A stretch of DNA of 64,000 nucleotides from Anaerolineae bacterium (GTDB lineage: Bacteria > Chloroflexota > Anaerolineae > Anaerolineales > UBA4823), in NCBI GenBank assembly GCA_003130835.1, contig QEXX01000088.1, positions 1 to 64,000 on the forward strand, given 5' to 3'. Every line of letters begins with the position of its first letter. Positions within the stretch are counted from its first letter, which is position 1. Below, in pieces: positions 46,574-50,835 of this stretch. The position numbers were made by a program, and so were the translations under genes. The notes beneath the pieces were generated by a model that was not told the origin of the DNA, made no database searches, and saw only the letters and a program-made list of their open reading frames with translations.

Positions 46574-49402
46574 TTACCAAGTGGGCAAACAAAGTCGAAA
46601 GGCGCTTCCAGCTCCAATCTTGCTCTCTACCTCGATTTGTCCTTGATGAAGTTCAATGATTTCCTTGACGATCGCCAGTCCTAAACCGGTGCCATGAATC
46701 TTGGATTGACGCACGGAACGCCCGCGATAAAACCGTTCAAAAATATGGGGTAAATCTTCTTCGCTAATGCCAATGCCGCTATCCCGAATTTCTAGGTAAA
46801 TCCGCTCGCCATTTTGCCAACTGGTTACTTTTACCCACCCTGTTGGTGTGTATTGGATAGCATTTCCGATCAGGTTTTGAATTGCTCTCGATAGGTAATG
46901 GGCTTCCCCCCGTACAACGGCAGGAGCTGAAAGATCGGTTATCAACTCCAAGCCAACTTGTTGAGCCGCCGGGGTGTAAGCGGTTATCGCTTGCTCAACC
47001 AACAAATTCAAATCGACCGGTTCGAATTCAATCTTACGCGTTTTTCCTATCGCCAATCGCGAGAGATCCAAAATATCCTCAACCAGGCGGCGCAACAATT
47101 GGCTCTGATCTTTTAGCACCTGAATATATTCCGTCTTCTTATGCTCTGGTGCTATTTCGAGCAACTCAAGATACAGGCCGATATTTGTCGTCGGCGTGCG
47201 CAGTTCATGCGATACATCCGCAACAAAGATGTCTTTGAGTCGTTCCAATTCTTTCCGATAGGTAATATCCCGCTGGGTAGCGACATAATTAATGAGTTGA
47301 CCGTTTTGATCGCGTACAGGAGCAATCGTAAGAAGGATATCGTAGGGTTCACCATTTTTTCGTTGGTGAAGAAGTTCACCACTCCACACATCGCCTTTTA
47401 GCAGTGCAGCTTGGATCGCTTCAATTGTAGAGACTGGATTATAGAGACCCAGCCAGTCGAAGTAATTCTGATGGATCAGCTCATGTTCTTCGTAGGAGGT
47501 TTGCACTTCCATCGCATGATTGATCAACTCGATCGAACCATTCAAGTCTGTCACCACCACCCCATCCCCCACACTTGCCAAAATCGCTTCCACCCGTTTC
47601 TTAGCTTCAAAAAGTTCCTTTGTCCGTTCTTGAACACGCAGTTCCAATTCGCTGGCATATTGCTGTAATTGATTCAGCAAGTGGATATTTTCAATCACCG
47701 GACCGAGGTTTCGGGAAACCACGCGTAAGATATCCATATCTTCAGCACTAAAGACATCACCCCCATATTTTGGTCCCAAAGCCAGTAATCCTTTGACAGT
47801 TTGATGGCTAATAATCGGCACCCATAAATGAGCTTGAGCACTACCTAACAATTGAAATTCTTCGGGTGAGAGTTTCGCTTGTGCAAGGGCATGGGCTATG
47901 GTTCTTCTCTCTTCCTCCCCCACTTTCAAAAGGAATTCAAGGCTGCTTCGGGGCAAAACCGTTGTATCCCCTACTTCAGGATTCTCCTGTAAAACTGCGC
48001 CTTCTGGAGCAACCGCTACCACTGAGAAATCGCCATGAATGTCGGTCAAGAAAATACAGGCATCAGCAATGCGTAAGGTTTTGACTAACCGCTTGCTGAC
48101 CTCCTTAGCTAATGCATTCAGATCATTGATATGTTCCAATCCAGAGGTGATTTGCAATACCGCTGAGCGGTAATCATACCAGCCTCCATAAAACAAGGTA
48201 TCCACCAAGCGCTGAGTGTAGCGTGAAATGGGTAAAACGCTGGTTGCCAGCAATAAGATGATTAAGGTATTGAGGGCAGGATCAAAAAGCAACTGTTTGG
48301 GCAGGAATCGATCGAAAATTGAAAAAATGCCTAAGTAGATGCCCACCAAAGTAAAAAATACAATCAATACTGTCACCCCTCGATTGATGTGCCGTTCGAT
48401 TTCAATTAATCGATAACGGAAGACCGCATATCCGTAAACCAGCGGTAAAGCTGATAAAAAGATAAAGATAACGGGTGTAGCTAGTAAAGTGCGATTGAGC
48501 AAGACTTCTGGTAATAAATAGGTGGTAATGAGTGGCAAAGCTGCAAGCAATCCCCCCAATAATACGAGGCGAATCTTGGCACGGGCACTACTGCTGGTTG
48601 TGTGTTGGTAGTTATAGTGAAGCAAAATGACACAGATCAATAAGTTGAAAGCTAAGAACAACCGCGAGAGTGGCATCAGAAATGAGAGCAAAGGATGGTC
48701 TTGGAGGTTAGCTGTTCCCCAGAGTAGATGCATTATTCCCCCCAGAAAACCGATCAAGTACAAAAGCAGTAAAACTCCTCGACGCTGAAATTGTTTTTTC
48801 TCTTGAGGAAAATGTAAGTGAAAATGCACCGAGATCGGGCCGACGATCCACCAGAGAAAATAATACAGATCAAGCACAATCGAGGGTGCCAAACCAGAGG
48901 CTTGTCCAGCCGTGAGCAATAAGCCTGAAGCTAAAAAGAACCAGAAAAACAAACGCGTTGTTGGAGAGCGCGGTGCATAAGCTTCAACTGCCAGCGCCAC
49001 AAACAAAAATACCGCAGCCACAAACAAAGGGGTTAACCTTCGAAGCAATTCAGAGGGAGGCGGAGCAGTCAGCACAACAGGCACAACCACCTTTGCCTCC
49101 CCCCTTTGCACAAGGAAATCAACAGTATCCCCAACATGTTTTCCCCCATACCAAGCTGACGCGTCAGACAATGGCTCACCATCGATCTCCAAGAGAATAT
49201 CCCCTACCTCAAAAGACGGAGGCCCTTTGCTTACTGCAACTGCAAGAATTTGATGAGAAGCTGATAAGCCTCGGATGCCATCATCTGGGTACTTGCTGAC
49301 CAGAATGGCCACCCAGACGATCACACTAAAAGCGAAAAGCCCGACCAAAAAAGGAAAGCTAAGACGAAGTCTAGGGGAGGGCTGAAAGGGGATTGATTGC
49401 AT
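46574..49402 (-). CDS. Sensor histidine kinase: TM + PDZ-like loop + polytopic membrane domain + GAF + PAS + HisKA/HATPase (ComP-like sensor half)
   Basis: SFEVGDILLEIDGEPLSDAS PDZ-like; ~7 further TM segments; PAS VEAILASVGDGVVVTDLNG; FVADVSHELRTPTTNIGLYLE; NLIGNAIQYTPTGWV; GTGLGLAIVKEIIELHQG. Confidence 0.92.
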   Translation of the reverse strand: MQSIPFQPSPRLRLSFPFLVGLFAFSVIVWVAILVSKYPDDGIRGLSASHQILAVAVSKGPPSFEVGDILLEIDGEPLSDASAWYGGKHVGDTVDFLVQRGEAKVVVPVVLTAPPPSELLRRLTPLFVAAVFLFVALAVEAYAPRSPTTRLFFWFFLASGLLLTAGQASGLAPSIVLDLYYFLWWIVGPISVHFHLHFPQEKKQFQRRGVLLLLYLIGFLGGIMHLLWGTANLQDHPLLSFLMPLSRLFLAFNLLICVILLHYNYQHTTSSSARAKIRLVLLGGLLAALPLITTYLLPEVLLNRTLLATPVIFIFLSALPLVYGYAVFRYRLIEIERHINRGVTVLIVFFTLVGIYLGIFSIFDRFLPKQLLFDPALNTLIILLLATSVLPISRYTQRLVDTLFYGGWYDYRSAVLQITSGLEHINDLNALAKEVSKRLVKTLRIADACIFLTDIHGDFSVVAVAPEGAVLQENPEVGDTTVLPRSSLEFLLKVGEEERRTIAHALAQAKLSPEEFQLLGSAQAHLWVPIISHQTVKGLLALGPKYGGDVFSAEDMDILRVVSRNLGPVIENIHLLNQLQQYASELELRVQERTKELFEAKKRVEAILASVGDGVVVTDLNGSIELINHAMEVQTSYEEHELIHQNYFDWLGLYNPVSTIEAIQAALLKGDVWSGELLHQRKNGEPYDILLTIAPVRDQNGQLINYVATQRDITYRKELERLKDIFVADVSHELRTPTTNIGLYLELLEIAPEHKKTEYIQVLKDQSQLLRRLVEDILDLSRLAIGKTRKIEFEPVDLNLLVEQAITAYTPAAQQVGLELITDLSAPAVVRGEAHYLSRAIQNLIGNAIQYTPTGWVKVTSWQNGERIYLEIRDSGIGISEEDLPHIFERFYRGRSVRQSKIHGTGLGLAIVKEIIELHQGQIEVESKIGAGSAFRLCLPTW

Positions 49403-49409
49403 AGGGTTT

Positions 49410-49438
49410 AGTTTACTACGTTATCAGAAGAGGTGCAA
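49410..49438 (-). promoter_or_regulatory. Candidate kinase promoter TTGCAC-N17-TAAACT, 7 nt before ATG (leaderless)
   Basis: Read on minus strand between ComQ-like gene and kinase. Confidence 0.5.
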
Positions 49439-49491
49439 CTTGAATGTCCAAGCGTCCAAACATCGATGTTGACTGCAGGCTCGAAAATACC

Positions 49492-50496
49492 TTAATTCTC
49501 CCCCACCAAGCGATTCAGGACACAGATAAGGGTTGCTTGTGCAATTGGTTGCAATCGATTGTTGTGTAAGTGTTTTCGTGCCAACTCAGCTTCCTGAGTC
49601 AGCATTGTCATGATGTATAAGGCAGCTCCGGTTTGATTGACCCACGCCACATAGCTTTGCCACTCCTCAGGCCGTTCGGCAAGGTTGTCGATTACCCTAC
49701 GGAAGGCAAGTTTCTGGTCGTCTGGTAGAACCTCAAGGGTATAAACTGTCGGCAAATTTTTATACCAGTTTAATGAGCGAGACAACGGGCTCTCACCCGC
49801 TTGTAGCCGGTGCCAATCTTCTAAATCGTCCAAAATTTGTAAAATCGACCCCACATGGGAACCAAAGTTCGCTAAATTCTTAACACAGCCTAGATCATCG
49901 GTTGCCATCCTCGCTCCTGCGTAGCAAGCCAAAGAAAAAAACGCACCCGATTTTTTTCGTAACATCTCGAGATAACTGGACAACGAAAATTCTTGGGTGG
50001 ATAAGTCCTGTTGTTGTCCCTCGCACATTTCCAACAGTCGCTCTTGAAAGCTCTTCAAGACGCTCGCAACGCGCCTCTTGTCATAATCCTGATCGAGCAA
50101 TGCCGTCAGAAGGGCATTTGCGATGAAAAAATAGCTTGAAGCTAGGTTTAACCATTCAGAAAAAGAATAAGGCGTATTGGCTAGGTCAACCCGCTGATCA
50201 AAATCTTGAACGCTATCCATCAAGTCGGCAGCAAGATAAAACAAGTACCACGCTGCGCTGATCTCAGGCGGGAAATGATCGCTTCCCCCACAAGCTTGAT
50301 AGGACAAACGGGGAAAAAGCAAGGTCAAATTACTATTCGAGAAAGATTGAGGACGCGGCGAAAGGCGCGACAAACTTTTCCATATCACCTCCTTAAATGG
50401 AGGCGATATGGAAAAGTTCGCAAAATAAGATTGAATAGTACGAAAAACTAAGTCTAACTCTCGGTTGACAAGCGACTCAAGCTCGTCTATCGCCAT
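49492..50496 (-). CDS. ComQ-like polyprenyl synthetase-fold protein, putative peptide isoprenyltransferase
   Basis: YLAADLMDSVQDFDQ (first Asp-rich region), RKKSGAFFSLACYAG, VGSILQILDDLEDW (second Asp-rich motif); overlaps small peptide gene by 10 bp. Confidence 0.75.
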   Translation of the reverse strand: MAIDELESLVNRELDLVFRTIQSYFANFSISPPFKEVIWKSLSRLSPRPQSFSNSNLTLLFPRLSYQACGGSDHFPPEISAAWYLFYLAADLMDSVQDFDQRVDLANTPYSFSEWLNLASSYFFIANALLTALLDQDYDKRRVASVLKSFQERLLEMCEGQQQDLSTQEFSLSSYLEMLRKKSGAFFSLACYAGARMATDDLGCVKNLANFGSHVGSILQILDDLEDWHRLQAGESPLSRSLNWYKNLPTVYTLEVLPDDQKLAFRRVIDNLAERPEEWQSYVAWVNQTGAALYIMTMLTQEAELARKHLHNNRLQPIAQATLICVLNRLVGEN

Positions 50497-50702
50497 CCGA
50501 GATACATTGAAGCCACTTCCTGCATTGAGATGAGGTTGCCATCCGCTCGAGTGGATCGTCGCAAGCCATGCGTGAGGAAGGCCTTCTCTTCGTAACTCAG
50601 TTGAATCCCTTTCTCCGCTAAGGCGCCTTCAGGGTCTGTCTGCAGACGCGCAGCAAACTCTGAATCGGTAGAAAGTTGGTAGACGACTTGGGCGAGTGTC
50701 AT
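50487..50702 (-). CDS. 71-aa candidate precursor peptide with Nif11/RiPP-leader-like N-terminus and C-terminal Trp (...SMYLGWR); ComX-like
   Basis: SDSEFAARLQTDPEGALAEKGIQLSYEEKAFL leader pattern; TTGACT-N17-TAAATA promoter and AAGGAGAAAGG SD support expression. Confidence 0.75.
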   Translation of the reverse strand: MTLAQVVYQLSTDSEFAARLQTDPEGALAEKGIQLSYEEKAFLTHGLRRSTRADGNLISMQEVASMYLGWR

Positions 50703-50753: not shown

Positions 50754-50782
50754 TATTTACCATAAATTGGAGTAAAAGTCAA
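50754..50782 (-). promoter_or_regulatory. Promoter of precursor peptide: TTGACT-N17-TAAATA
   Basis: Read on minus strand; 17-bp spacer. Confidence 0.7.
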
Positions 50783-50789
50783 GTATTTT

Positions 50790-50803
50790 CCCTAAATATA
50801 GGG
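50790..50803. promoter_or_regulatory. Dyad CCCTA-AATA-TAGGG just upstream of the precursor -35
   Basis: 5-bp inverted arms; 7 bp upstream of the TTGACT box. Confidence 0.5.
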
Positions 50804-50819
50804 CAAGAAGCATCTACAA

Positions 50820-50835
50820 CCCCAATATATTGGGG
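50820..50835. promoter_or_regulatory. Perfect 16-bp palindrome CCCCAATATATTGGGG
   Basis: Self-reverse-complementary; centre 31 bp from the CCCTAAATATAGGG centre. Confidence 0.6.

Follow-up and report, generated by a model that had tools for sequence, protein, structure and literature searches.

Does a short peptide encoded directly ahead of a polyprenyl-synthetase-fold protein and a large membrane-bound histidine kinase serve as the precursor of a prenylated signal that the kinase perceives? This question is raised by three consecutive genes in a 64,000-nucleotide stretch (hereafter the window) of contig QEXX01000088.1, from the Anaerolineae bacterium assembly GCA_003130835.1. Comparison of the peptide, the transferase and the kinase with their relatives leads us to regard the locus as probably a prenyl-tryptophan signalling unit of the ribosomally synthesised and post-translationally modified peptide (RiPP) type, in which the chemistry and the signalling are predicted from homology and gene linkage. 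A preliminary description made from the DNA letters alone had arrived at the same interpretation, which is supported overall; it did not name the closest characterised precedent, PalQ/PalX/PalP, though an NHLP precursor, a transferase and a kinase had already been joined there (PMC10853753).

A constrained precursor with an invariant tryptophan

The three genes lie on the minus strand in the order peptide, transferase, kinase, at the coordinates and with the overlap first described:

50487-50702, minus strand: precursor peptide gene; 71 amino acids, NHLP/Os1348-type leader at about residues 1-44, C-terminus ASMYLGWR
50493-50495, minus strand: codon of the predicted acceptor Trp70, the second-last residue; Trp in 20/20 aligned family precursors
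49492-50496, minus strand: transferase gene; 334 amino acids, similar to trans-isoprenyl diphosphate synthases (trans-IDS), ComQ/PalQ-like predicted peptide Trp prenyltransferase
46574-49402, minus strand: sensor histidine kinase gene; 942 amino acids, first transmembrane helix (TM1), PDZ-like loop, transmembrane (TM) bundle, GAF, PAS, HisKA, HATPase_c

The peptide stop and the transferase start share 10 bp (ATGGCGATAG), and the kinase gene begins 89 bp past the transferase stop. In NCBIfam, it is family NF038399 ('Os1348 family NHLP clan') that the peptide matches, with an E-value of 7e-10 and 38.8 bits, just below the curated cut-off of 40 bits, which the homologue L006 exceeds with 46.1 bits. 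The window precursor therefore carries the NHLP-type leader found at PalQXP-type loci, as anticipated when a RiPP-type leader was suggested in place of that of ComX.

Comparison with the same-genus locus L033, at which synonymous sites are nearly saturated (proportion of synonymous differences, pS, 0.73-0.84), identifies the peptide as the most constrained of the three genes. Its proportion of nonsynonymous differences (pN) is 0.09 at a pS of 0.73, against 0.18 for the kinase and 0.33 for the transferase, and 58/71 residues are identical, with ...YLGWR kept. Because the peptide is held more tightly than either neighbour, a chance open reading frame is ruled out, and the family alignment speaks to the same effect. 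This same-genus relative (L033/L094) belongs to Anaerolineales, in agreement with the original placement of the DNA in Chloroflexota.

Across the 20 aligned family precursors, Trp70 is the sole invariant residue in the C-terminal third. A core Trp is present in all 31 precursors collected, usually one or two positions before the C-terminus or within tandemly repeated units, and it is second-last in the window precursor and most relatives; the chance of finding Trp in all 31 cores is about 2e-15 at 1.3% Trp per residue, a rough figure given that the sequences are related. We considered whether the Trp is kept merely through the overlap with the ATG of the transferase. This is ruled out because 12 family loci in which the two genes are separated by gaps of 3-275 bp still retain it. 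Several relatives encode multi-core precursors, with about 4.8 units of 54 bp in L042 (GPNGPWDWQFGS...), about 3.9 units of 48 bp in L040 and SWYQ repeated three times in L108. At L100 (G675:C98) two near-identical precursor genes stand in tandem ahead of the transferase.

Linkage of peptide, transferase and kinase

Among the 38 genomes in the GTDB family to which the window belongs, the transferase was scored in 23 and the precursor in 24, namely the same genomes and G684. Two apparent linkage exceptions, G683 and G684, are assembly gaps that cut the transferase just past its start, the precursor being followed by the transferase N-terminus and then by a run of 100 N. After correction for these gaps, peptide and transferase occur together in 24/38 genomes and are both absent in 14/38 (Fisher p 2e-9 as scored, 1e-10 gap-corrected). 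A transferase and a histidine kinase are linked to the precursor at the family loci. The preliminary description had held that homologues without the Trp, or unlinked to the transferase, would count against it; none was seen, with Trp in 31/31 precursors and linkage in 24/24 peptide-bearing family genomes. A profile search of the transferase group across the phylum returned, among classifiable matches other than the window's own, only housekeeping synthases, and it therefore gives no estimate of prevalence.

Genome G021 holds five transferase homologues on separate contigs, of which the loci L034 and L029 were examined; no recognisable precursor lies upstream of the L034 transferase. Upstream of the precursor, L044 and L041 encode a PapB-like radical S-adenosylmethionine (SAM) maturase, an M50/daptide-type protease homologue and a lantibiotic-protection-type ATP-binding cassette (ABC) transporter, surroundings that suggest a larger RiPP cluster including prenylation. 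Dehalococcoidia versions, with a precursor ending in ...LFWM, are found at L045 and L046, and the kinase of L046 is a hybrid kinase.

The transferase resembles ComQ but stands apart from it

The transferase matches Pfam PF00348 (polyprenyl_synt, E 9e-15), and its AlphaFold2 (AF2) model, with a predicted local distance difference test (pLDDT) score of 91.3, adopts an isoprenoid-synthase fold. The motif strings ADLMDSVQDFD and LQILDDLED were read correctly in the preliminary description and correspond to two conserved sites:

50203-50217, minus strand: first Asp-rich motif, D94-S-V-Q-D98; D94 and D98 invariant in the group alignments
49816-49839, minus strand: Gln220 and the second Asp-rich motif, Q-I-L-D-D-L-E-D; Q220 invariant, D224 nearly so

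In chain-elongating synthases the GKRxRP and RR motifs bind isopentenyl diphosphate (IPP). Both are lost in 16/16 aligned members of the group and retained in 4/4 housekeeping controls, so that the transferase lacks the IPP-site motifs of an isoprenyl diphosphate synthase, and two canonical synthases are encoded elsewhere in the window's genome. A maximum-likelihood tree separates the transferase group from the housekeeping enzymes (100/98). When three ComQ proteins were added (from Bacillales plasmids, each beside an annotated comX, with kinase and regulator also present at two of the loci), 36 Anaerolineae proteins formed a clade of their own (100/99), while ComQ grouped with the two Dehalococcoidia proteins of L045 and L046 (96/86). 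The clustering with housekeeping prenyl-diphosphate synthases that had been named beforehand as damaging to the interpretation is thus not seen in either tree, and identity as a housekeeping synthase is rejected in view of the two other synthases, the separate clades and the loss of GKRxRP and RR.

By sequence, chain 9v4g gives the best match in the Protein Data Bank (PDB), with an E-value of 1e-10. Its name in the fold search is 'Prenyltransferase Ord1', an enzyme that farnesylates free Trp according to a 2026 review (PMC13290415). Many of the top PDB fold matches are geranylgeranyl diphosphate (GGPP) and polyprenyl synthases, and a Foldseek search against viral proteins gave no relevant match. 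The Gln equivalent to Q220 recognises the indole NH in PalQ (PMC10853753); as a diagnostic, a Gln before the second Asp motif was dropped, housekeeping synthases carrying one too.

The proposed likeness to ComQ holds in part. In a profile comparison the transferase matches ComQ with an E-value of 2e-23, but it lies outside the ComQ clade. ComQ is without a complete second Asp motif and the window protein has one, which points to PalQ instead. From its sequence, the transferase appears to work like ComQ though it is not a member of that clade.

The kinase carries a ComP-like sensor

The kinase matches HisKA (E 7e-15) and HATPase_c (E 7e-29) in Pfam, together with GAF and PAS domains, and its N-terminal part includes the following element:

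49067-49291, minus strand: PDZ-like extracytoplasmic loop, about residues 38-112; weak PDZ_2 match, beta-rich AF2 model

The PDZ_2 match has an E-value of 0.013 in the window kinase and passes the Pfam cut-off in the homologues L036, L038 and L042. In the AF2 model (pLDDT 83) a TM helix is predicted at residues 10-37 and a beta-rich segment at 39-112, and others have modelled a PDZ domain between TM1 and TM2 of ComP (PMC9620489). The sensor profile aligns with authentic ComP in hhalign with a probability of 97.8 and an E-value of 6.9e-13 over 299 columns, spanning the loop and the TM bundle, compared with an E-value of 0.14 for an unrelated polytopic permease used as a control. The ComP-type module of TM1, PDZ loop and TM bundle is therefore present, and the account of a HisKA kinase with a PDZ-like loop and a polytopic sensor is borne out. 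The majority of the strongest sensor matches within the family fall at transferase loci.

A paired operator and a candidate regulator

Upstream of the peptide gene, between it and a divergent gene for a metallo-beta-lactamase-fold protein, lies a pair of palindromes:

50820-50835, unstranded: predicted operator palindrome 1, CCCCAATATATTGGGG; upstream of the peptide gene
50790-50803, unstranded: predicted operator palindrome 2, CCCTATATTTAGGG; 31 bp from palindrome 1
50754-50782, minus strand: likely promoter of the peptide gene, TTGACT-N17-TAAATA, read by eye; TTGACW and the spacing conserved in the genus

Palindrome 1 matches the window once, where 0.03 matches would be expected, and both palindromes recur with small changes at the same position in other members of the genus. 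The pattern CCCNATATNTNGGG occurs at four places in the genome, two at this locus and two inside genes; the latter suggest no wider regulon, and the putative paired operator has no other intergenic occurrence in the genome. The promoter was not listed by a scan for consensus promoters.

In several relatives HisKA_3 kinases occur with LuxR-type regulators, and divergent relatives, L034 for example, have an adjacent NarL/LuxR-type regulator of the ComA kind, which the window lacks. A receiver-led regulator gene immediately follows the kinase in L035, L105, L155, L156 and L158, that of L035 being a REC-HD-GYP protein. A single clear orthologue of it is encoded at G000:C136:12850 in the genome of the window (56% identity, 390 bits, the next match reaching 174), with HD, HHE and GYP motifs. 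By homology, this REC-HD-GYP protein, with a predicted role in cyclic di-GMP (c-di-GMP) turnover, is the best candidate and the likely partner of the kinase, a pairing that we infer.

Comparison with characterised systems

Among characterised systems, PalQ/PalX/PalP of Paenibacillus alvei comes closest: in vitro, PalQ attaches a prenyl group to the C-terminal Trp of a precursor of the NHLP type (PMC10853753). Going by the published description, both systems combine an NHLP-type leader, a trans-IDS-like prenyltransferase and a clustered histidine kinase with a Trp at or near the C-terminus and a second Asp motif preceded by Gln. The window system differs in its phylum, in a Trp that is second-last or internal, in the peptide-transferase-kinase order with a 10-bp overlap, and in its multi-core relatives, conserved operator and likely REC-HD-GYP output.

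With ComQ-ComX-ComP-ComA it shares a Trp peptide, a trans-IDS-like transferase and a kinase built of TM1, PDZ loop and TM bundle. However, its leader is of the NHLP and not the ComX type, its peptide gene precedes the transferase gene where comX follows comQ, its transferase has an intact second Asp motif and falls in a clade separate from ComQ, and its kinase is of the HisKA type. Ord1 has the same fold but is described as acting on free Trp and not on a linked precursor (PMC13290415), and the housekeeping trans-IDS have the fold and the Asp motifs in common with the transferase, which differs in its lost IPP-site residues and separate clade. In a 2014 census, ComQXPA-like loci were confined to Firmicutes (PMC4008528). 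We found no Chloroflexota peptide pheromone in the literature, a search of open-access papers that is no proof of absence.

Proposed mechanism and alternatives

We propose the following scheme for how the unit might operate. The NHLP-type leader would hold the 71-residue precursor on the neighbouring transferase, which would use an allylic diphosphate as donor to place an isoprenyl chain of probably C10-C20 on the second-last Trp, and by analogy with ComX and PalX the Trp ring may then close. Host factors would remove the leader and release the lipidated C-terminal peptide (...YLGWR), the presumed ligand, which the ComP-like sensor would perceive at the membrane or within it. The kinase would in turn phosphorylate a response regulator encoded elsewhere, for which the protein at G000:C136:12850 is the best candidate, and feedback could act through the paired operator.

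Several observations weigh against this reading. PalQ demands a Trp exactly at the C-terminus and tolerates no extension (PMC10853753); here the C-terminal Trp of PalQXP-type loci is absent and one residue usually follows, so that the specificity of PalQ cannot be transferred. No gene for a leader protease or exporter was seen near the window locus, and no response regulator adjoins the locus in the window's genus. A Foldseek search with the sensor model is dominated by matches resembling G-protein-coupled receptors and does not confirm the PDZ fold. Related transferases occur with no recognisable precursor at L034 and L013, and sensor-type kinases occur without the peptide: at the syntenic position in G669 (L155, G669:C3:80000-89000), the kinase is accompanied by a REC-HD-GYP-like gene but by neither precursor nor transferase, so that this is possibly a receiver-only strain.

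The rival that deserves most attention, unlikely as we judge it, accepts prenylation of the Trp but takes the product to be a membrane-active or antimicrobial lipopeptide, with the kinase monitoring envelope stress or the cell's own product. Prenylated peptides can be membrane-active according to a review (PMC13290415), and the maturase, protease homologue and transporter beside the L041 and L044 precursors would suit such a product; the window locus itself, however, lacks genes for immunity, transport or proteolysis, its sensor is of the ComP type, and a dedicated operator pair stands at this promoter alone. It is very improbable that the prenylated peptide stays in the cell, where it would serve the kinase as a lipidated partner or inhibit it, with no signal released. 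The small unit, the kinase gene directly downstream and the missing export or cleavage gene would fit that idea, but the tandem multi-core precursors of relatives resemble devices for releasing many short copies, and ComX and PalX are themselves cleaved by enzymes encoded elsewhere. Slightly less likely again is the idea that the transferase belongs to the ordinary prenyl-diphosphate or terpene synthases and stands beside a peptide that is a separate small regulator: its appeal lies in the overall fold and in the GGPP and polyprenyl synthases among the top fold matches, and against it stand the lost GKRxRP and RR motifs, the separate clade, the two other synthases in the genome, the obligatory linkage to a Trp peptide and the best PDB sequence match, the Trp prenyltransferase Ord1.

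Returning to the prenyl-tryptophan signalling unit, what is new is the phylum, the penultimate or internal Trp, the tandem multi-core precursors, the paired operator and the likely REC-HD-GYP (c-di-GMP) regulator. It is possible, if somewhat doubtful, that Chloroflexota have their own lineage of prenyl-Trp pheromone circuits, with transferases apart from ComQ and single- or multi-core precursors, autoregulated via the paired operator and, in the family to which the window belongs, coupled through a REC-HD-GYP regulator to the hydrolysis of c-di-GMP. If this is true, lipidated-peptide signalling would be older or more mobile than thought, the multi-core precursors and the penultimate-Trp specificity would offer new prenyltransferases beyond the strict C-terminal rule of PalQ, and a large, mostly uncultured phylum would gain a testable communication system.

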